Shown here: positions 2,217 through 64,000 of the stretch, one piece after another
Layout of the letters: every line of letters starts with the position of its first letter
How positions within the stretch are numbered: the first letter of the stretch is position 1
From: Branchiostoma floridae
Lineage: Eukaryota > Chordata > Leptocardii > Amphioxiformes > Branchiostomatidae
Direction: 5' to 3'
Assembly: GCF_000003815.2 (NCBI RefSeq)
Contig: NC_049995.1
Span: 834,284-898,283 of the forward strand
DNA: 64,000 nt
Notes under the pieces: generated by a model
Databases searched by the model: none
What the model was told of the DNA's origin: nothing
Seen by the model: the letters and a program-made list of their open reading frames with translations, nothing else
Position numbers and translations under genes: made by a program

Positions 2217-2382
2217 CTGTGCAGAGCTGCACAAGAAACTGAACCAGCTCCAGGCGGACCTGAAGAAGCGAGACCAGGAGACGCAGCGCCGCTTCCTGGA
2301 GATGTACGAGAAGGGGCGAGCCGCCGAGCAGTTCGAGCAGAGTGAGAACCTGCTGTGTGATGCCATGACAGCACCTGCACAG
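2217..2382 (+). CDS. Coiled-coil protein, internal exon B
   Basis: The acceptor is atccacag and the exon is 166 bases, completing the split codon of the previous exon and ending phase 0 at CACCTGCACAG/GTGAGAAC. It encodes CAELHKKLNQLQADLKKRDQ and a further helical stretch (RRFLEMYEKGRAAEQFEQSE) ending in ATM-TAPAQ-type small residues. The last 15 exon bases plus the donor are the founder of the 28-base minisatellite that begins immediately downstream, so many copies of this donor follow. Reading on past the first donor reaches an in-frame TGA in the second repeat copy, so the first donor is the productive one. Confidence 0.8.
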
Positions 2383-2815
2383 GTGAGAACAGGGGCACAG
2401 CACCTGCACAGGTGAGAACAGGGGCACAGCACCTGCACAGGTGAGAACAGGGTACAGCACCTGCACAGTTGAGAACAGGGGAACAGCACCTGCACAGGTG
2501 AGAACAGGGTACAGCACCTGCACAGGTGAGAACAGGGTACAGCACCTGCACAGGTGAGAACAGGGGTACAGCACCTGCACAGGTGAGAACAGGGTACAGC
2601 ACCTGCACAGGTGAGAACAGGGGAACAGCACCTGCACAGGTGAGAACAGGGTACAGCACCTGCACAGCTGAGGACAGGGGAATAGCACCTGAACAGGTGA
2701 GAACAAGGGAACAGCACCTGCACAGGTAAGAACAGGGCACCTGGACAGTTGAGAACAGGGGTTATAGCACCTGCACAGGGGAGAACAGGGGAACAGCACC
2801 TGGTCAGGTAGTAAA
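2368..2815. repeat. 28-base minisatellite derived from an exon end and splice donor
   Basis: About fifteen head-to-tail copies of a roughly 28-base unit containing CACCTGCACAG/GTGAGAAC, starting inside exon B. Units differ by single substitutions and 1-2 base indels (for example ttgagaac or ctgagg in place of gtgagaac), and decay toward the right end. Open frames across it on both strands are a product of the repeat and do not encode a protein. Confidence 0.95.
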
Positions 2816-3130
2816 CGGAACAGCACCAGCACAAGTAAGAAACGTTTACAGCACCTTGACAAGTGAGAACAAAGGGTACAGCACCTTGACAAGTGAGAAC
2901 AAAGGGTACAGCACCTTGACTCCTACGAAATGGGGTACAGCACCTGGGCAGGTAAGAACTAGGGTATAGCACCTGGGCAGGTAAGAACTAGGGTATAGCA
3001 CCTGGGCAGGTAAGAACTAGGGTATAGCACCTGGGCAGGTAAGAACTAGGGTATAGCACCTGGGTAGGTAAGAACTAGGGTATAGCACCTGGGCAGGTAA
3101 GAACTAGGGTATAGCACCTGGGCAACTGAA
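2816..3130. repeat. Second, related minisatellite block
   Basis: After a diverged transition (2816-2930), a clean array of about seven 28-29-base units runs to about 3125. Each unit carries cacctgggcaggtaagaac, which again contains a donor-like CAG/GTAAG. The unit is a homologue of the upstream 28-mer, so the two blocks are one array that evolved two unit types. Confidence 0.93.
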
Positions 3131-3706: not shown

Positions 3707-3808
3707 TAGCCTGGGTACCATCCGATTTCTACCGGGGTTCCTTTCACTCGTGTTTTTTAGTCGGCGAGTGTATGGAGCCCCGGTAGAAATCGGCTGGTAC
3801 CCAGGCTA
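3707..3808. mobile_element. Short hAT-like foldback MITE (TAGCCTGGGTACC family)
   Basis: A 102-base hairpin element with near-perfect arms (tagcctgggtacc at the left, ggtacccaggcta at the right, pairing continuing through the gatttctaccgg region). It is bounded by an exact 8-base duplication, ctaaatag, at 3699-3706 and 3809-3816. It is too small to code for anything. Confidence 0.88.
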
Positions 3809-4129
3809 CTAAATAGGGGATACATGACGTGCTTAAGTCAAGTCATGACGTTGTAGGAATCATGAAGGTGTCCAGTAAGAATGTCAAATACTAATGGACG
3901 CTTCAGTTATATACAGAATTAATATTGTTACCTGGCAACACTGTAAATTTATCTATTTTCCGAGTTTCACAGGACTTTTTTTTAACAGCAGAAGGAGAAA
4001 GAGGCCTTCTGAGGTTGAAGAAATTCCATAATACACTAATATGTAGTAATGATATGGAATTGTGGTGTCATTGTTTTCTGGGGAGGGGGGTGACTGCTGA
4101 AAAACACCACAAATATTTAAATATTCACA

Positions 4130-14068: not shown

Positions 14069-14181
14069 CATTGTCTTCCGAGACAGATGGATGCCAACTA
14101 TTCATCACATAACCTTTCACATGACTTGTGTGGAAAATTCTCACAAACAAATGAGGAAGAAAACAAATAAACTGGTCTGAC

Positions 14182-14313
14182 CTGCTCTGTAGGTGTTTGA
14201 CCCTGGCCAGCAGGTCAACGTGCCCAGCAGAGTACTGTTCTATCACATCTTTCACATCGTACGGCCTCAACGCTTCTCGAAACTTCCGCCTAGCAACAAA
14301 ATACTTGATTTTT
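14182..14313 (-). CDS. KCNQ: KCNQ exon 13: helix B end and helix C
   Basis: The exon is 132 bases, with acceptor gtctttttcag and donor gtcaga. It encodes [20 protein letters not shown], then [20 protein letters not shown] and LQSR. This is the most conserved KCNQ C-terminal block: the calmodulin-binding helix B, the RPYDV-DVIEQYS-GH signature and the start of helix C used for tetramer assembly. It joins to exon 12 through AG|A (Arg) and to exon 14 through AG|G (Arg). Confidence 0.95.
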
Positions 14314-14429
14314 CTGAAAAAGACAAATTGAGATTTGGATTCAGGGTAAGTCGGTTGGTTTACAAAGAGTGAGCGCTGGTCATAACATAAATCTAGCATG
14401 ATTGTGTTAACTTTAGGCTATTAGCATGT

Positions 14430-19796: not shown

Positions 19797-20308
19797 ACTT
19801 TCTGTCAGTACTATTAAGGCTCTCAGTACTAGCCTTGGTACAGAGGCACAGGTAAAAACCAACCTCTGTCCCCATGTTACAGTTCAACCAATACGACCAA
19901 GGTTTATGTCACTAGTCTTGGTACATATCTATGGGTAACGTTAGTTCACCTTTATCCGTAGGGTAACCTATATCCGTTGTATATAAAAATATGGTATTTG
20001 GGGGCCGTTAAGTTGATGGAAGGTACTTTTACATTGCAATATTTTGAAAATGTTGACATTTGAAACCCACGTCGTTGACCTGACATCTCTAAATACCCAG
20101 TTTTTTAAAACAACGAATCTAAGTTACCCCACGGATTAAGGTGAACTAGCGTTACAAGTGAACTTCAGTCATATGCTATAGCAACCAGTACTACTGAGTC
20201 TTGTATCTCTGACCTTGGTACTGAAGTACATGTACAAGTCAACTACAGCTAGAGTAGCCAGTACTACTGAGGCTCTCAGTATTAGCCTTGGTACTAATTT
20301 TAATTTAC
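19797..20308. repeat. Degenerate flank of the 80-base minisatellite
   Basis: Blocks with gtactattaaggctctcagt, gtactactgaggctctcagt and ccttggtac words are diverged relatives of the unit in the array that follows. A MITE (19936-20154) has been inserted into them, so the array is older than that insertion. Confidence 0.6.
19936..20154. mobile_element. TAACGCTAGTTCACC MITE, copy 4
   Basis: About 219 bases, left end taacgttagttcaccttta, right end gattaaggtgaactagcgt. It is inserted in the degenerate edge of the minisatellite. Confidence 0.87.
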
Positions 20309-21267
20309 CAGTACTACTGAGGCCTGTAGCCCTGCCCGTAGTACCGAACTGTGGGTACACATCTATTGCAGTCCCCTTGCCATTGTACCAGTACTACTGA
20401 GGCCTGTAGCCCTGCCCTTGGTACTGAACTATGGGTACACATCTATTGCAGTCCCCATGCTATTGTACCAGTACTACTGAGGCCTGTAGCCCTGTCCTTG
20501 GTACTGAACTATGGGTACACATCTATTGCAGTCCCCATGCTATTGTACCAGTACTACTGAGGCCTGTAGCCCTGCCCTTGTTACTGAACTATGGGTACAC
20601 ATCTATTGCAGTCCCCATGCCATTGTACCAGTACTACTGAGGCCTGTAGCCCTGTCCTTGGTACTGAACTATGGGTACACATCTATTGCAGTCCCCATGC
20701 CATTGTACCAGTACTACTGAGGCCTGTAGCCCTGCCCTTGCTACTGAACTATGGGTACACATCTATTGCAGTCCCCATGCTAATGTACCAGTACTACTGA
20801 GGCCTGTAGCCCTGCCCTTGGTACTGAACTATGGGTACACATCTATTGCAGTCCCCATGACATTGTACCAGTACTACTGAGGCCTGTAACCCTGTCCTTG
20901 GTACTGAACTATGGGTACACATCTATTGCAGTCCCCATGACATTGTACCAGTACTACTGAGGCCTGTAGGCCTGTCCTTGGTACTGAACTATGGGTACAC
21001 ATCTATTGCAGTCCCCATGCCGTACCAGTACTACTGAGGCCTGTAGGCCTGTCCTTGGTACTGAACTATGGGTACACATCTATTGCAGTCCCCATGCCGT
21101 ACCAGTACTACTGAGGCCTGTAGCCCTGCCCTTGGTACTGAACTATGGGTACACATCTATTGCAGTCCCCATGCCATTGTACCAGTACTACTGAGGCCTG
21201 TAGGCCTGTCCTTGGTACTGTCCTTGGTACTGAACTATGGGTACACATCTATTGCAGTCCCCATGCC
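20309..21267. repeat. 80-base minisatellite, left block (about 12 units)
   Basis: Near-identical units of 80 bases start with ccagtactactgaggcctgt and contain ggtactgaactatgggtaca and catctattgcagtccccatg. Two or three units near 21000-21110 are a 77-base variant lacking three bases (atgccgtacc for atgccattgtacc). Because 80 is not a multiple of three, the array gives staggered 69-codon open frames that are not genes. The array lies in the intron between KCNQ exons 10 and 9. Confidence 0.97.
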
Positions 21268-22897
21268 ATCATAAATGCCTCCATACAGACAAGTGAATTT
21301 CCAGAGGATTGGAAGAAAGCTAGACTGTCACCCATACACAAGGCTGGTGACAGAGACGCTCCCAACAACTACTGACCCATCAGCATCCTGCCTGCCGTCT
21401 CCAAAATCCTGGAAAGAGCTGCACACACACAGCTCTATGACTACCTGACAACCAACAACGTGCTCTCACAAGTTCAATCCGGCTTCAGACCTGGGCACTC
21501 AACACATACGGCTGTACACTTGCTCACTGAGAAGTGGTACAAGGCCATGAACGACGGTGAACTGACTGGAGCAGTGTTCATTGACCTGTCCAAGGCCTTT
21601 GATACACTCGATCACTCCATCCTTCTCCAGAAGATGTCCAGATATGGCATACAGGGCCATGCTCTTGACTGGTTCCAGTCATATCTCACTGGAAGGAAAC
21701 ACTGTACTTCAATCAATGAAGCAACTTCCGAATTGTACCAAGTAAGTACGGGGTACTCAGGGATCTATACTAGGACCCCTGCTGTTCATCATCTATGTCA
21801 ACGATATGCCAGAATGCCTCCAGTTTTGTGACATCTCCATGTATGCTGATGATACGGTAATCCACTACAGTAGCAAGGACCTCACGAACATTGAGAACAA
21901 ACTTCAAAATGACCTTCTACGGCTGTCCAAATGGTTTGCTGCATACTCTTTATCAATGAATAGTAGCAAGTGTAAATGCATGTGGATTGGAACATCCAAG
22001 AGACTGGCAAGCATCAACTATCCTAACTTGGCTGTCAATGGCGTCAACATCAAAACATGTGACAAATACACCTACCTGGGCGTTGTGATCGACTGTCAGC
22101 TAAAGTGGAAGGACCAGGTAAAAGCCGTCCTCGGGAAACTGAAACGATCATTATTTATGATGAAACACATCAGCCCCTTCATCTCAACAGCAGCACTCCG
22201 TACCCTGTATAACGCCATCTTCTTACCACACATCACATATGCCTGCACAGCATGGGAAGCTGCCCCAGACCAAGACTTACAAAAGATTCAAAGGATGCAG
22301 AACAGGGCTGGAAAACTGATACTGAACGCTCCATACAGGACACCAACAACTGAAGTTCTCTCCCAGCTAGGCTGGAAAGACATTAAAGCGACACACCAGT
22401 ACAGCAATGCCGTGCTAGTCTACAAGGCCCTAAACAGCAAACTACCACCCTACATGCGTCAGATGTTTGTGTACTGCAGGGACCAGAGTACACGGACAAC
22501 CAGACAAAGCACAAGTAGTCAATTGGTTGTCCCAAAACCGAATCGAGAGACCTTCAGAAGATCAATAGCCTACCGTGGCCCCTATGTCTGGAACAACCTA
22601 CCACCAGACACACGTACGGCTCCAAATCTGACCAGCTTTAAGAGACTCTTGAAGTAAAAGTAATTGACCAAAACGAACGGACACGGACTATGAACACTGA
22701 GCCATCTGCACCACTATATGTTTTGTACAATGTATGTGTAGTGATATAGGTTGATGAATCTAATAGTACTCAATGTAATCTGTATCTGTATTATATTTTA
22801 TATGACCCTGACCTCCCTCATGACCTCAATGAAAAGCGGCCTGCTGGCCGATTTGAGCTTCTCATGAATAAACAAAGGTTCAAACAAACAAACAAAT
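21268..22897 (+). pseudogene. 5'-truncated LINE (jockey/CR1-like reverse transcriptase)
   Basis: It starts mid reverse-transcriptase domain and runs to a 3' UTR with a short acaaacaaacaaa tail. Recognisable blocks: FPEDWKKARLSPIHKAGDRD; QSGFRPGHSTHTAVHLL; FIDLSKAFDTLDHSILL; the catalytic YADDT at about 21842-21856; then the thumb and C-terminal region (YTYLGVVIDCQLKWKDQV; RMQNRAGKLILNAPYRTP; RSIAYRGPYVWNNLPPDT) up to a stop at 22656. A TGA follows PNNY near 21373, and a frame change occurs near 21750-21800, so it is dead. The element sits inside the minisatellite, with atgccat on both sides as a probable target duplication. Confidence 0.9.
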
Positions 22898-23770
22898 GCC
22901 ATTGTACCAGTTCTACTGAGGCATGTAGGCCTATCCTTGGTACTGAACTATGGGTACACATCTATTGCAGTCCCCATGCCGTACCAGTACTACTGAGGCC
23001 TGTAGGCCTATCCTTGGTACTGAACTATGGGTACACATCTATTGCAGTCCCCATGCCGTACCAGTACTACTGAGGCCTGTAGGCCTATCCTTGGTACTGA
23101 ACTATGGGTACACATCTATTGCAGTCCCCATGCCATTGTACCAGTACAACTGAGACCTGTAGCCCTGCCCTTGGTACTGAACTATGGGTACACATCTATT
23201 GCAGTCCCCATGCCATTGTACCAGTACTACTGAGGCCTCTAGCCCTGTCCTTGGTACTGAACTATGGGTACACATCTATTGCAGTCCCCATGCCATTGTA
23301 CCAGTACAACTGAGACCTGTAGCCCTGCCCTTGTTACTGAACTATGGGTACACATCTATTGCAGTCCCCATGCCATTGTACCAGTACTACTGAGGCCTCT
23401 AGCCCTGTCCTTGGTACTGAACTATGGGTACACATCTATTGCAGTCCCCATGCCATTGTACCAGTACTACTGAGGCCTCTAGCCCTGTCCTTGGTACTGA
23501 ACTATGGGTACACATCTGTTGCAGTCCCCATGCTATTGTACCAGCACTATTGAGGCCTGTAGCCCTGCCCTTGGTACTGTACTGTGGGTACACATCTATT
23601 GCAGTCCCCATGCTCATGTACCAGTATTAATGAGGCCTGTAGACCTGTCCTTAGTACAGAACTATGGGTACATATCTGTTGCAGTCCCAATGCTATTGTA
23701 CCAGTACTACTGAGGCTCAAAGCCCTGCCCTTGGTACTGAACTACAGGTTCATAACAACCACAGTCCCCA
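22898..23770. repeat. 80-base minisatellite, right block (about 11 units)
   Basis: The array continues past the LINE with the same unit, including 77-base variants directly beside the insertion (22979-23140). Units become diverged toward 23770, where the array fades about 90 bases before the splice donor of KCNQ exon 9. Confidence 0.96.
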
Positions 23771-25116: not shown

Positions 25117-25270
25117 CTAGAGGACTGCTGGTGCTGAACCGTGACAGTTGGGATTTGAATGATTTCTTCTTCGCTGCCGCGTCCTTCCTGTCGGGCACCG
25201 CTCGCAGGTGGGGCAGCCAGGTCGCAATGGAGCGAGAGTTTTTATCCCCAGCATAACACCTCCACAAGCA
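25117..25270 (-). CDS. KCNQ: KCNQ exon 8: end of helix A (IQ motif) and linker
   Basis: The exon is 154 bases, with acceptor ttctctacatttcag and donor CTAG/GTCAGA. It encodes CLWRCYAGDKNSRSIATWLP, then HLRAVPDRKDAAAKKKSFKS and QLSRFSTSSPL. Together with ...PAAALIQ from exon 7 it forms the IQ-type calmodulin site on helix A (IQxxWRxYA in vertebrate KCNQ). The basic KKKSFKS stretch is like the polybasic segment of KCNQ1 in the same place. Confidence 0.92.
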
Positions 25271-28065: not shown

Positions 28066-28161
28066 CTGTATCAGTGCTGCGGCGGGGTGCCTTCTCCGTG
28101 CAAAGTGTTTCTGTCGGGCCTGCTCTTGTACCTTCAGGGCGAATCCAGATCCCAGAATGCC
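28066..28161 (-). CDS. KCNQ: KCNQ exon 7: end of S6 and helix A
   Basis: The exon is 96 bases, phase 0 to phase 0, with acceptor cttactgttgcag and donor gtactg. It encodes [20 protein letters not shown], then [12 protein letters not shown]. This is the KCNQ signature directly after the S6 PAG hinge. It leads into calmodulin-binding helix A and contains the basic cluster after S6 thought to contact PIP2 in the family. The length equals the 96 bases I recall for the matching vertebrate exon. It is too short to stand out as an open frame, but it is unmistakable by sequence. Confidence 0.96.
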
Positions 28162-29303
28162 CTGCAACAGTAAGGGTCATAGAGAGTCAAGACTGGGCAG
28201 CTATGGTGACTTCAAAGTGGTCATACTGGTCAGTTCATACTGCTTCTGCACCAATAATACCAGGCTTGGTCAGAGAAAGGCCATGCTTGTTAATGTTAGC
28301 AAAGTCTATCATGTCCCAAGTTTTCCGCAAAAAAAGAAAAAGTATGCACATAACAAAAGCTCAGACCAAAGCTTCATACACAGGAAACTTGATCGTACCA
28401 ATTGTTTGTAAGAAGGAAATAGTCCAAAAGGTAACAAAAACATCAGCCATAATTCCAAGAGGTATCCAATGTCCATCGCATTAACAAAAAACAGTAAATT
28501 TTTAGACATCATCTAAAAATATTCACATGTAGCATCAGTGATCACACTTGACATCCAGGTGTTGAAAACATTCTTGGGAAAGCCTTAGTAACCATGCATT
28601 TGAAGATGACGTGCATTTTGGCAGTGTGTTTACTTATTAGGATAGCATGCAACGAGGAAAAATTGGCATTATGCTCCTTTCTATATTGACAATTACAACG
28701 TATTGCAGCAAACGATATGGAAAACATGTAACGGTACATGTATGTTTGCCAAAACTAGTTACAAATAAATCTGTGTCATGACTTAAAATTTAAGCTTTAC
28801 TAAATTTTCATCAATGAATTGATCAAAGAAAGTTTCTTCTTCATTGTACTTCAGTCTACAGATTTGTGCTCCGTGTATTTTCATCTTGGAAATGATGCCA
28901 GCCCATTGTCAAGATAGGATACATTTCCCAAAGCAGCATTCTGGAAGTGAATACCATGTTTCTAATGCATTCATTCATGCATTGTTATGGAAGGGGTACC
29001 ACAACCATGCATCGATGTGACAAAATGTATTCTCGAATCGTGTGTGCACAGCCGCAGCAGTTTAGTGTCCATTCCTTAACAAATCAAGATCATGCCTTGC
29101 ACTCCTATAGCAGCATCTAACCCTCTAAGGATTCCTGCATTCCAAAAATGCCCTTCTCATGACATCATCAACCATTCCAGGGTCATCCCAAGCATCCAAG
29201 AACTGTACTTCACCATCCACATGCTGACTGACCAATCATTGCCAGTTTTACTTCTGACCCCATGCTGATCGACCAATCCTCAGGCTTAAGCCTTATGACT
29301 TAC
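28162..29303. other. Intron DNA, nothing recognised
   Basis: The intron between exon 7 and the downstream pore exon 6A. I see no exon or clear transposable element. Confidence 0.4.
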
Positions 29304-29414
29304 AGCCGGAAGGGCAAAAAAGGAAATTCCACACAGCCCAAACACAACAGTCAGCAACTTTCCCTGCCAACTGTCTGGTGTGGCGTCGCCGTAACCAACC
29401 GTTGTCATGGTTAT
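29304..29414 (-). CDS. KCNQ: KCNQ pore exon 6A (selectivity filter and S6)
   Basis: The exon is 111 bases, phase 0 to phase 0, with acceptor ctctgttctacag and donor gtaagt. It encodes [20 protein letters not shown], then [17 protein letters not shown]: the filter TVGYGD followed by S6 up to the PA of the PAG hinge, which exon 7 completes. Vertebrate KCNQ filters read TIGYGD, so Ile is Val here, as in Kv1-4 channels. S6 keeps the canonical SFFALPA. A homologous exon of the same length and phase lies 339 bases upstream in the gene. Confidence 0.95.
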
Positions 29415-29753
29415 CTGTAGAACAGAGATCGGATAGAATGGTGAGGTCAACATCCTGTAGGAAGGGTCGGAGTGCGGGATATCGGGAGGGCAGCTACCAT
29501 CATGGTAACCTTTGGCAACCTTGGGCAAGACTACATGAGCTTTCATGGATACATCCAACAAATTTGGAGTATGAAACATAGTTTTTGAAGATTCCCTGCA
29601 TTGTTAAAAGCCTTTCTAGCTCATGATTCAATTTATATTTCAAAGTTTACACCTTCTAAGCTTCATGTAGTTTTGTGTCAATATTGGTGATCCTGCCCAA
29701 GGTTGCGCCCCCCTCCCCAACCCACACACCTACCCTGCACTGTCATTACTTAC

Positions 29754-29864
29754 AGCAGGAAGCATGAAGAAGGAAATACCAAGCAGCGAGAACCCGACCG
29801 CAACCAGCTTCCCCAACCAGGTGTCCGGGGTGGCGTCACCGTAGCCTACAGTTAACAGCGTGAT
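29754..29864 (-). CDS. KCNQ: KCNQ pore exon 6B (alternative selectivity filter and S6)
   Basis: The exon is 111 bases, phase 0 to phase 0, with acceptor gttttgtctgcgcacag-type (cag before ATCACG) and donor gtaagt. It encodes [20 protein letters not shown], then [17 protein letters not shown]. Compared with 6A it has Leu for the first Thr of TTVGYG, TWLGKL for SWQGKL, and Met for Ala in SFFALPA. That Ala corresponds to KCNQ1 A341, a known long-QT hotspot. Including both exons would keep frame but duplicate the filter and S6, so the two are presumably mutually exclusive. Confidence 0.95.
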
Positions 29865-31102: not shown

Positions 31103-31231
31103 CACTCCCCAGTAAAGCGCTTTTGCAAAATTGCCAAAGTCCTCAGGATTTTCATCCTTCTCAATGAGGTAGAGAGAAAAGGAGGCAAATATGAGTGCCA
31201 GGAAACCGATGTATGCCGTGGTCAGAAGTTC
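31103..31231 (-). CDS. KCNQ: KCNQ exon 5: S5 and pore helix
   Basis: The exon is 129 bases, phase 0 to phase 0, with acceptor ttttttgtcttttcag and donor GTG/GTGAGT. It encodes ELLTTAYIGFLALIFASFSL, then YLIEKDENPEDFGNFAKALY and WGV. This is S5 and the start of the pore helix (ADALWWGV in vertebrates), followed directly by ITMTT or ITLLT from either pore exon. The S5-pore turret is four residues shorter than in KCNQ1 by my alignment. Confidence 0.96.
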
Positions 31232-31989: not shown

Positions 31990-32165
31990 CTGTCTATGTG
32001 CCCAGACCACGGACCCCAGCAGTTTCCAGGTCCCCCCTCTCCTGTCCATGCGAACCATTCGCAGGATCTGCAGGAACCGCAGCCCTCGTAACGCAGAAGC
32101 CGCAAACACATTGCCATGGGAACCCAAACTCAAAACTACGACAGATGCAACTATGACCACCAGAT
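31990..32165 (-). CDS. KCNQ: KCNQ exon 4: S3, S4 voltage sensor and S4-S5 linker
   Basis: The exon is 176 bases, completing the split Asp codon (G|AT) of exon 3 and ending phase 0 at HRQ. It encodes [20 protein letters not shown] (S3), then [20 protein letters not shown] (S4 with R-x-x-R-x-x-Q-x-x-R spacing) and [18 protein letters not shown] (S4-S5 linker). The Gln in the third charge position is typical of KCNQ. 176 equals the sum of the 79- and 97-base exons I recall for KCNQ1, so an intron present in vertebrates is absent here. Confidence 0.96.
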
Positions 32166-34804: not shown

Positions 34805-34931
34805 CTATGATCACAAATGGCCTCCTGGCAAAGCGTAACCGTCCGCGCCATGTCTGGTAGCGACTACGACAGCCTGCAGCCCACATCCGCAAAATGTACT
34901 CCATCCCAAACACAATCACGATGATGATTTC
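34805..34931 (-). CDS. KCNQ: KCNQ exon 3: S2 and S2-S3 linker
   Basis: The exon is 127 bases, phase 0 in and one base over, with acceptor atgtttcag. It encodes EIIIVIVFGMEYILRMWAAG, then CRSRYQTWRGRLRFARRPFV and II plus the first base of Asp. It carries S2 with its conserved Glu in FGMEY and the AAGCRSRY and RGRLRFARRP blocks of KCNQ. The length equals vertebrate KCNQ1 exon 3 as I recall it. The donor is the unusual ATAG/GTTTGT, supplied by the adjacent LINE tail. Confidence 0.95.
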
Positions 34932-40942: not shown

Positions 40943-41033
40943 CATGATAAACAGCACATGATTGGACGTATCTTCATAGTCATCTATGGTACAGAAGACA
41001 CTCAGCACCAGACATAGGAACACCAGTAGGAAA
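40943..41033 (-). CDS. KCNQ: KCNQ exon 2: S1 and S1-S2 loop
   Basis: The exon is 91 bases, one base in (completing AT|T, Ile) and phase 0 out, with acceptor cctcttctgttccag and donor ATG/GTGAGT. It encodes FLLVFLCLVLSVFCTIDDYE, then DTSNHVLFIM. This is S1 and the S1-S2 loop, matching FLLVFSCLVLSVFSTI in KCNQ2. The length is the same as KCNQ1 exon 2 as I recall it. It can follow either exon 1a or exon 1b in the same frame. Confidence 0.95.
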
Positions 41034-63828: not shown

Positions 63829-64000
63829 ATGATGATATGATATGCCAGTGTTTTACACCCTGCCGGTCGCTCCAGGAAATTGTACACCATCATCTGAAAG
63901 TGGCGATACCTCGCCGCCCGCCGCGTGGCACGGTACCCGATGGGTTTCCCGAGCAGGCTCATCCTGGGCAGTGCGTACCTTCCCACAGTTCCCTGTTTCC
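63829..64000 (-). CDS. KCNQ: KCNQ exon 1b: pre-S1 and start of S1 (alternative, cut by window end)
   Basis: The donor is CAT/GTGAGT, the same phase as exon 1a. It encodes YALPRMSLLGKPIGYRATRR, then AARYRHFQMMVYNFLERPAG and CKTLAYHII, joining exon 2 through AT|T. It carries the family pre-S1 signature (YNFLERPxGW in KCNQ1), here with Cys for Trp, so it is the conventional version. An ATG is present at MSLLGKP, but the frame is open to the window edge, so the true start may lie outside. High GC fits a coding exon. Confidence 0.9.

Follow-up and report, generated by a model that had tools for sequence, protein, structure and literature searches.

Among the closest described counterparts of the arrangement reported here is the vertebrate pair KCNQ2/KCNQ3 (Kv7.2/Kv7.3, the M-channel), in which, as in the lancelet gene, two pores differ at the residue preceding the filter Thr. 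This residue carries a hydroxyl group in KCNQ2 and none in KCNQ3. The two vertebrate pores are the products of separate genes, whereas in the lancelet a single gene contains two exons. The alanine at position 315 is described as unique to KCNQ3, and its replacement by Thr or Ser increases current approximately 30-fold (140 versus 14.9 pA/pF in the recordings made for that study) (PMC4687061). The same source speaks of an unstable KCNQ3 pore or “dormant channel” that is stabilised by a hydrophilic residue or by assembly with KCNQ2. The A315T substitution alters neither the maximal open probability nor the apparent affinity for PIP2, and the linker between helices C and D is another cause of small KCNQ3 currents, with an effect of about 2-fold. 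A rise in current of approximately 15-fold is given in PMC3472549, together with A315-I312 and A315-F344 interaction networks.

Tandem duplicated exons that swap the pore region of one gene are likewise found in NALCN (PMC3557258), where the mutually exclusive exons exchange a filter residue (Glu/Lys) and selectivity may change. In contrast, the filter of the lancelet KCNQ gene is constant and it is residues near the gate-filter contacts that differ; alternative filters of the NALCN type are not present at this locus, where the two filters are identical. In PMC3557258, amphioxus NALCN is reported with an EEEE pore only. Fly slowpoke and cacophony, cockroach para and human CACNA1 provide further examples of tandem homologous exons in voltage-gated channels, which are often ancient (PMC9741552); the events described in section 16 of that source concern other channel families, and KCNQ genes are not named in that section. 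Among the titles and abstract openings listed in our literature search, which covered few subscription papers, none dealt with a duplication of the pore exon in KCNQ genes. Tandem exclusive exons are thus already known in channels, and a pair of KCNQ pore exons seems, as far as such a search can indicate, to be without an earlier account.

A lancelet KCNQ gene with two adjacent pore exons

The window, the whole stretch of 64,000 nucleotides analysed here (C17:834284-898283), belongs to an assembly of 513,431,437 bases in 431 contigs, and most of it is spanned by a KCNQ gene on the minus strand. Exons were located by tblastn with a human KCNQ2 sequence and by reading of splice sites (Table 1). 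The mapped exons, which run from the 3' part of exon 1 to exon 7 and further include a helix A-like and a helix C exon, represent a partial model. Helices A and B are the calmodulin-binding segments of KCNQ channels, and of these a putative helix A-like motif is seen in the window gene. Exons 1 and 2 have weak scores singly, but are joined by an in-frame junction. The assembled partial protein contains a six-transmembrane ion-transport domain with a potassium filter, as judged by matches to PF00520 (Ion_trans; 127.8 bits with exon 6A and 117 bits with exon 6B; cut-off 25) and PF07885 (58.7 and 54.3 bits, respectively; cut-off 22.5). It also matches the KCNQ-specific C-terminal domain, PF03520 (KCNQ_channel), above the Pfam cut-off with either pore exon (76.2 bits, covering 46 of 189 profile positions); in the genomic sequence this match lies at C17:848446-848604 (window 14163-14321) and scores 81.6 bits.

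Table 1. Mapped features of the lancelet KCNQ gene (positions are those of the window)
Feature	Position	Strand	Evidence and remarks
Exon 1, 3' part (N-terminus to S1; ...YNFLERPAG...YHII)	63829..63999	minus	tblastn with KCNQ2, E 0.41 (weak alone); reading frame; GTGAGT donor
Exon 2 (S1-S2), 91 nt	40943..41033	minus	tblastn, E 0.37 (weak alone); frame; splice sites
Exon 3 (S2-S3), 127 nt	34805..34931	minus	tblastn; frame; splice sites
Exon 4 (S3-S4), 176 nt	31990..32165	minus	tblastn; frame; splice sites
Exon 5 (S5 to pore helix), 129 nt, phase 0 at end	31103..31231	minus	tblastn; frame; splice sites
Alternative pore exon 6B, 111 nt	29754..29864	minus	tblastn; whole-genome protein search; splice sites; comparison with 6A
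Intron between 6B and 6A, 339 nt	29415..29753	minus	
Alternative pore exon 6A, 111 nt	29304..29414	minus	tblastn; whole-genome protein search; splice sites; comparison with 6B
Exon 7 (end of S6), 96 nt	28066..28161	minus	tblastn; frame; splice sites
C-terminal exon with LWRCYAG motif, putatively helix A-like	25150..25270	minus	only 5' boundary mapped
C-terminal exon with conserved KCNQ_channel (helix C) stretch	14182..14313	minus	tblastn; boundaries by eye

The two pore exons follow one another in the order exon 5, 6B, 6A, exon 7 (5' to 3'), and their location, equal length, phase (0 to 0 in both) and spacing were all as originally predicted. Both are bounded by intact splice sites, with AG at the acceptor and GTAAGT at the donor. 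The reading frame is maintained with 6A or 6B alone and also with both together, which would add 222 nt without a stop codon. The copies differ at 35 of 111 bases (32% nucleotide divergence), with 9, 7 and 19 differences at the first, second and third codon positions, and at 10 of 37 residues rather than the 11-12 first counted. Between positions 28900 and 30300 the sole direct repeat of at least 25 nt is one of 124 nt, comprising the exon plus its splice sites, and tblastn with human KCNQ2 detected no exon 6 sequence in the window beyond these two. The succession of a 111-nt pore exon and a 96-nt exon (111/111/96 in this gene) is repeated in the lancelet KCNQ1 gene on C19 (111 and 96), and these are presumably also the exon sizes in human KCNQ genes.

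Repeats occur elsewhere in the window. At 20306-23744, between mapped KCNQ exons, an open frame with a reverse transcriptase domain (PF00078, 48.4 bits; 21746-22654, plus strand) is flanked by two arrays, of 11.5 and 10.7 copies, whose 80-bp units are almost identical. A 29-bp tandem array of 26 copies (2368-3120) overlaps a 282-residue open frame that has no Pfam match and is probably not a gene.

Relationship to other KCNQ genes

When the whole genome was searched at the protein level with the 6B peptide, 35 matches were obtained at E values up to 1. The top three were 6B, 6A and the exon on C19 (E 9.4e-10), with the fourth at 4.5e-4, and by this search the KCNQ-type pore exons of the genome number three: 6A, 6B and one in KCNQ1. 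Two loci, the window gene and that on C19, exceeded the cut-off in a search with PF03520, and none did so in 14 control genomes. No second KCNQ2-5-like gene was found in either of these genome searches (pore peptide and PF03520). The C19 gene is KCNQ1-like: its pore exon shows 5 differences from human KCNQ1 in 37 residues, the following 96-nt exon matches human KCNQ1 at 31 of 32, and in a tree based on 37 columns this sequence groups with human KCNQ1 (support 97/96). A second pore exon was present neither in the 5,001 bases of this KCNQ1 gene that were read nor among the matches of the whole-genome search. Hill et al. 2008 (PMC2597720) described two KCNQ genes of amphioxus from fragments, one being KCNQ1 and the other KCNQ4/5-like.

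Judged by sequence similarity, the window gene is nearer to KCNQ2-5 than to KCNQ1. Isoform A, compared with the human proteins from S1 to S6, scores 383 bits with KCNQ2, 377 with KCNQ4, 371 with KCNQ5, 353 with KCNQ1 and 333 with KCNQ3; KCNQ2/4/5 thus exceed KCNQ1 by 18-30 bits and KCNQ3 is lowest. When exons 5-7 are considered, all of KCNQ2-5 are above KCNQ1 for isoform B (KCNQ5 162, KCNQ4 161, KCNQ2 151, KCNQ3 144 and KCNQ1 139 bits), and the nearest sequence to isoform A is KCNQ5 (78 of 111 residues). A hallmark of KCNQ2-5 is nevertheless absent: the S5 Trp of the retigabine/GABA site (KCNQ3 W265), which is highly conserved in deuterostomes (PMC5945843), aligns with an Ala in exon 5 of the window gene. 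We therefore refer to the gene as KCNQ2-5-like and not as a full member of this subgroup.

Residue differences between the pore exons

In KCNQ1 numbering (column n of the alignment being residue 307+n), the ten differences between 6A and 6B are located at positions 310, 311, 322, 324, 328, 329, 331, 333, 335 and 341. The original prediction was that splicing would swap both ion selectivity and gating machinery. Residues implicated in gating do differ, but both exons encode the same TVGYGD filter, so selectivity should be the same and a selectivity swap is rejected. Both copies possess Val where the filters of human KCNQ1-5 have Ile, as had been noticed; the filter of lancelet KCNQ1 contains Ile (TIGYGD), unlike that of the window gene.

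The two substitutions singled out at the outset, Leu (6B) versus Thr (6A) before the filter Thr and Met (6B) versus Ala (6A) at the position of KCNQ1 A341, were read correctly. The first of these, column 4, is Thr in 6A and in human KCNQ1, 2, 4 and 5, Ala in human KCNQ3 and Leu in 6B. It corresponds by alignment to KCNQ3 A315, and primers printed in PMC7733659 place A315 at the same column. The second, column 34, is Ala in 6A and in all six other sequences compared, and Met in 6B; it adjoins the Phe of the gate-filter contact (KCNQ1 F340). In KCNQ1, interactions between I337, T311 and F340 are homologous to the gate-filter coupling of KcsA, and F340 contacts V310 (PMC9960071). The long-QT table of PMC7212895 includes T311A, T311I, A341G, A341V and A341E. 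Exon 6B departs from the family at both sites, which is likely to alter gate-filter coupling, and the departures of 6A from the family are mainly in the body of S6.

It is possible to propose a function from these differences. The exon chosen would determine how stable the pore is and how the gate is coupled to the filter, and would leave selectivity unchanged. With Thr and Ala at the key sites, 6A would yield a conducting subunit resembling KCNQ2/4/5, and 6B, with Leu and Met, would yield a KCNQ3-like subunit that is weak alone, depends on a partner and acts mainly in mixed tetramers. This assignment of a conducting KCNQ2-like role to 6A and a partner-dependent KCNQ3-like role to 6B draws on analogy with the vertebrate pair and is tentative. 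We regard as similarly doubtful the suggestion that a single lancelet gene supplies, through its alternative exons, the conducting and the dormant subunit of an M-channel-like pair, with the splice ratio setting the size of the current. It is likewise speculative that lancelets, by duplicating an exon, came to divide these roles between subunits as vertebrates did by duplicating a gene, and at the same position of the pore helix. The likeness to KCNQ3 is imperfect, as residue 315 of KCNQ3 is Ala whereas 6B has Leu, and the effects cited above are those of Ala changed to Thr or Ser, not to Leu. The Met of 6B could offset the Leu. Also weighing against the proposal are the second cause of small KCNQ3 currents mentioned above, the unaltered open probability and PIP2 affinity of A315T, and the Ala of this gene at the S5 Trp site.

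A realistic alternative shares with this proposal the exclusive use of the exons, but supposes that both forms are fully active homomers and that the choice of exon adjusts kinetics, voltage dependence, or sensitivity to drugs or KCNE-type subunits, and does not separate a conducting from a partner-dependent form. The constraint on both copies (see below) and the identity of their filters are consistent with this, as is the location of the Ala/Met site within S338-A341 of KCNQ1, where mutations change the effect of KCNE1 on gating (PMC7212895). It is less readily reconciled with the exchange of Thr for Leu at a site where a non-hydroxyl residue is associated with small KCNQ3 currents.

Age and constraint of the duplicated exons

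The tree on 37 columns places 6A next to 6B with support of 88/91, which is below the starred level of the program, and V6, A11, D14 and V23 are common to both exons and present in none of the six other sequences compared. The simplest reading of these sequences is that the duplication took place in the lancelet line after its split from vertebrates, although gene conversion may be an alternative. The branch leading to 6A is the longer (0.41 versus 0.17 for 6B), and 6A has more differences from KCNQ4 and KCNQ5 (13 and 12, versus 10 and 10 for 6B); on this comparison 6A could be the specialised copy.

Estimates of dN and dS between the exons were 0.21 and 1.97 (NG86), 0.24 and 1.00 (YN00), and 0.21 and 1.79 (ML). 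The high dS (1.0-2.0) and low dN/dS ratio (approximately 0.1-0.25) imply that the pair is old and constrained. When neutral evolution was simulated along a branch of 0.5 substitutions per site, none of the 2,000 runs started from each exon gave 10 or fewer residue changes. With 0.25 substitutions per site this outcome was seen in 6.6% of runs from 6A and 8.0% from 6B, and stop codons, which were tallied separately, appeared in 47% and 43% of all runs, respectively. Most likely, both copies have long been constrained by purifying selection, to judge from pairwise dN/dS and a simple simulation in one species. Low dN/dS at high dS, the lack of stop codons and the intact splice sites of both exons also make it unlikely that one copy, either 6A or 6B, is rarely used or dying, even though the longer branch of 6A, or an acceptor in 6B that by eye is less rich in pyrimidines, might be taken as signs of decay.

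Proposed exclusive use of the pore exons

Adjacent homologous exons of equal length and phase with intact splice sites are a hallmark of mutual exclusion, and in our view 6B and 6A are, with high probability, an old mutually exclusive exon pair in the sole KCNQ2-5-like gene found. Exclusive use is proposed because inclusion of both exons, or of neither, would break the membrane topology despite preserving the frame. It is accordingly very improbable that the two exons are joined in one longer protein: the frame would permit 222 nt without a stop, but the product would have a second filter and an extra membrane helix, and from the topology of KCNQ channels its C-terminal assembly domain would be on the wrong side.

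A recognised exclusion mechanism is common among exons of this type but does not define them. None of the constraints that we considered, a very short intron, a clash of U2 and U12 splice sites, or a frameshift upon double inclusion, was found to enforce exclusion here: simple steric exclusion would call for an intron shorter than 339 nt, both donors are GTAAGT, and 111 is divisible by 3. Competing RNA pairing was also considered and rejected, as the flanking introns did not pair with each other more strongly than shuffled sequences did, the latter matching or exceeding them in 5 of 30, 13 of 30 and 6 of 12 cases. By default, a trans-acting splicing regulator is the likeliest means of enforcing exclusive use of 6A and 6B.

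Lancelets are highly heterozygous, which would lend itself to an assembly or haplotype duplication, but this artefact, which the original prediction had named as a possible refutation, is contradicted by the 32% nucleotide divergence, the confinement of the repeat to the exon plus splice sites and the search of the genome, in which no additional copy was found, and we reject it as having a negligible chance of being correct.

Tandem pore exons elsewhere in the genome

The pattern TVGYGD has 38 matches in the genome, two of which are the window exons; the 36 others were examined. Several of these are not potassium channels, for example the tubulin-like frames at L030 and L031, and four (L013, L017, L033 and one of two in L018) lack a frame of at least 25 codons. 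Two further loci with pairs of pore exons were encountered. At a Slo1-like (BK) locus (L035, C3:26834000-26843900, minus strand), filters at C3:26839476 and 26839716 belong to two tandem pore exons of 171 nt separated by a 69-nt intron. These differ at 30 of 171 bases and 9 of 57 residues (dN 0.09, dS 0.76), and the first copy matches calcium-activated potassium channel subunit alpha-1 among solved structures (83 bits). An SK-like (KCNN) locus (L036, C2:28810000-28818900, plus strand) contains pore exons of 142 nt (L036:3526-3667; TVGYGD) and 139 nt (3723-3861; AVGYGD) with an intron of 55 nt between them; inclusion of both would break the frame, and the first copy matches SK2 among solved structures (159 bits). 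Introns of 69 and 55 nt make simple steric exclusion possible at these loci, in contrast to the 339 nt of the KCNQ gene, and the Slo1-like pair perhaps represents sterically exclusive alternative pores.

A wider filter pattern matched at 88 places, of which 50 had not appeared in the first search, and in a partial survey no further pair was found in the 1.1 kb around 14 of these 50. Kv-type filters are also grouped on C9, with four in C9:4480000-4506700 (27 kb) and two in C9:5870000-5883500 (14 kb), in open frames of 398 to 574 codons; these are probably clusters of intron-poor Kv genes.

Implications for channel diversity in lancelets

If the proposed exclusive pairing of 6A and 6B is correct, a single splice choice would alter gate-filter coupling in the sole KCNQ2-5-like gene found in this invertebrate chordate, and one of the changes would fall at the residue that sets KCNQ3, with its small homomeric currents, apart from the other human KCNQ subunits. 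The possibility that exon duplication provided a parallel solution to the KCNQ2/KCNQ3 partnership would become testable, and the exons would offer a natural pair of pores for studying the weakness of KCNQ3 homomers. The Slo1-like and SK-like pairs suggest that duplication of pore exons has been a recurrent route to potassium channel diversification in the lancelet, which may tune by splicing channels for which vertebrates use extra genes.
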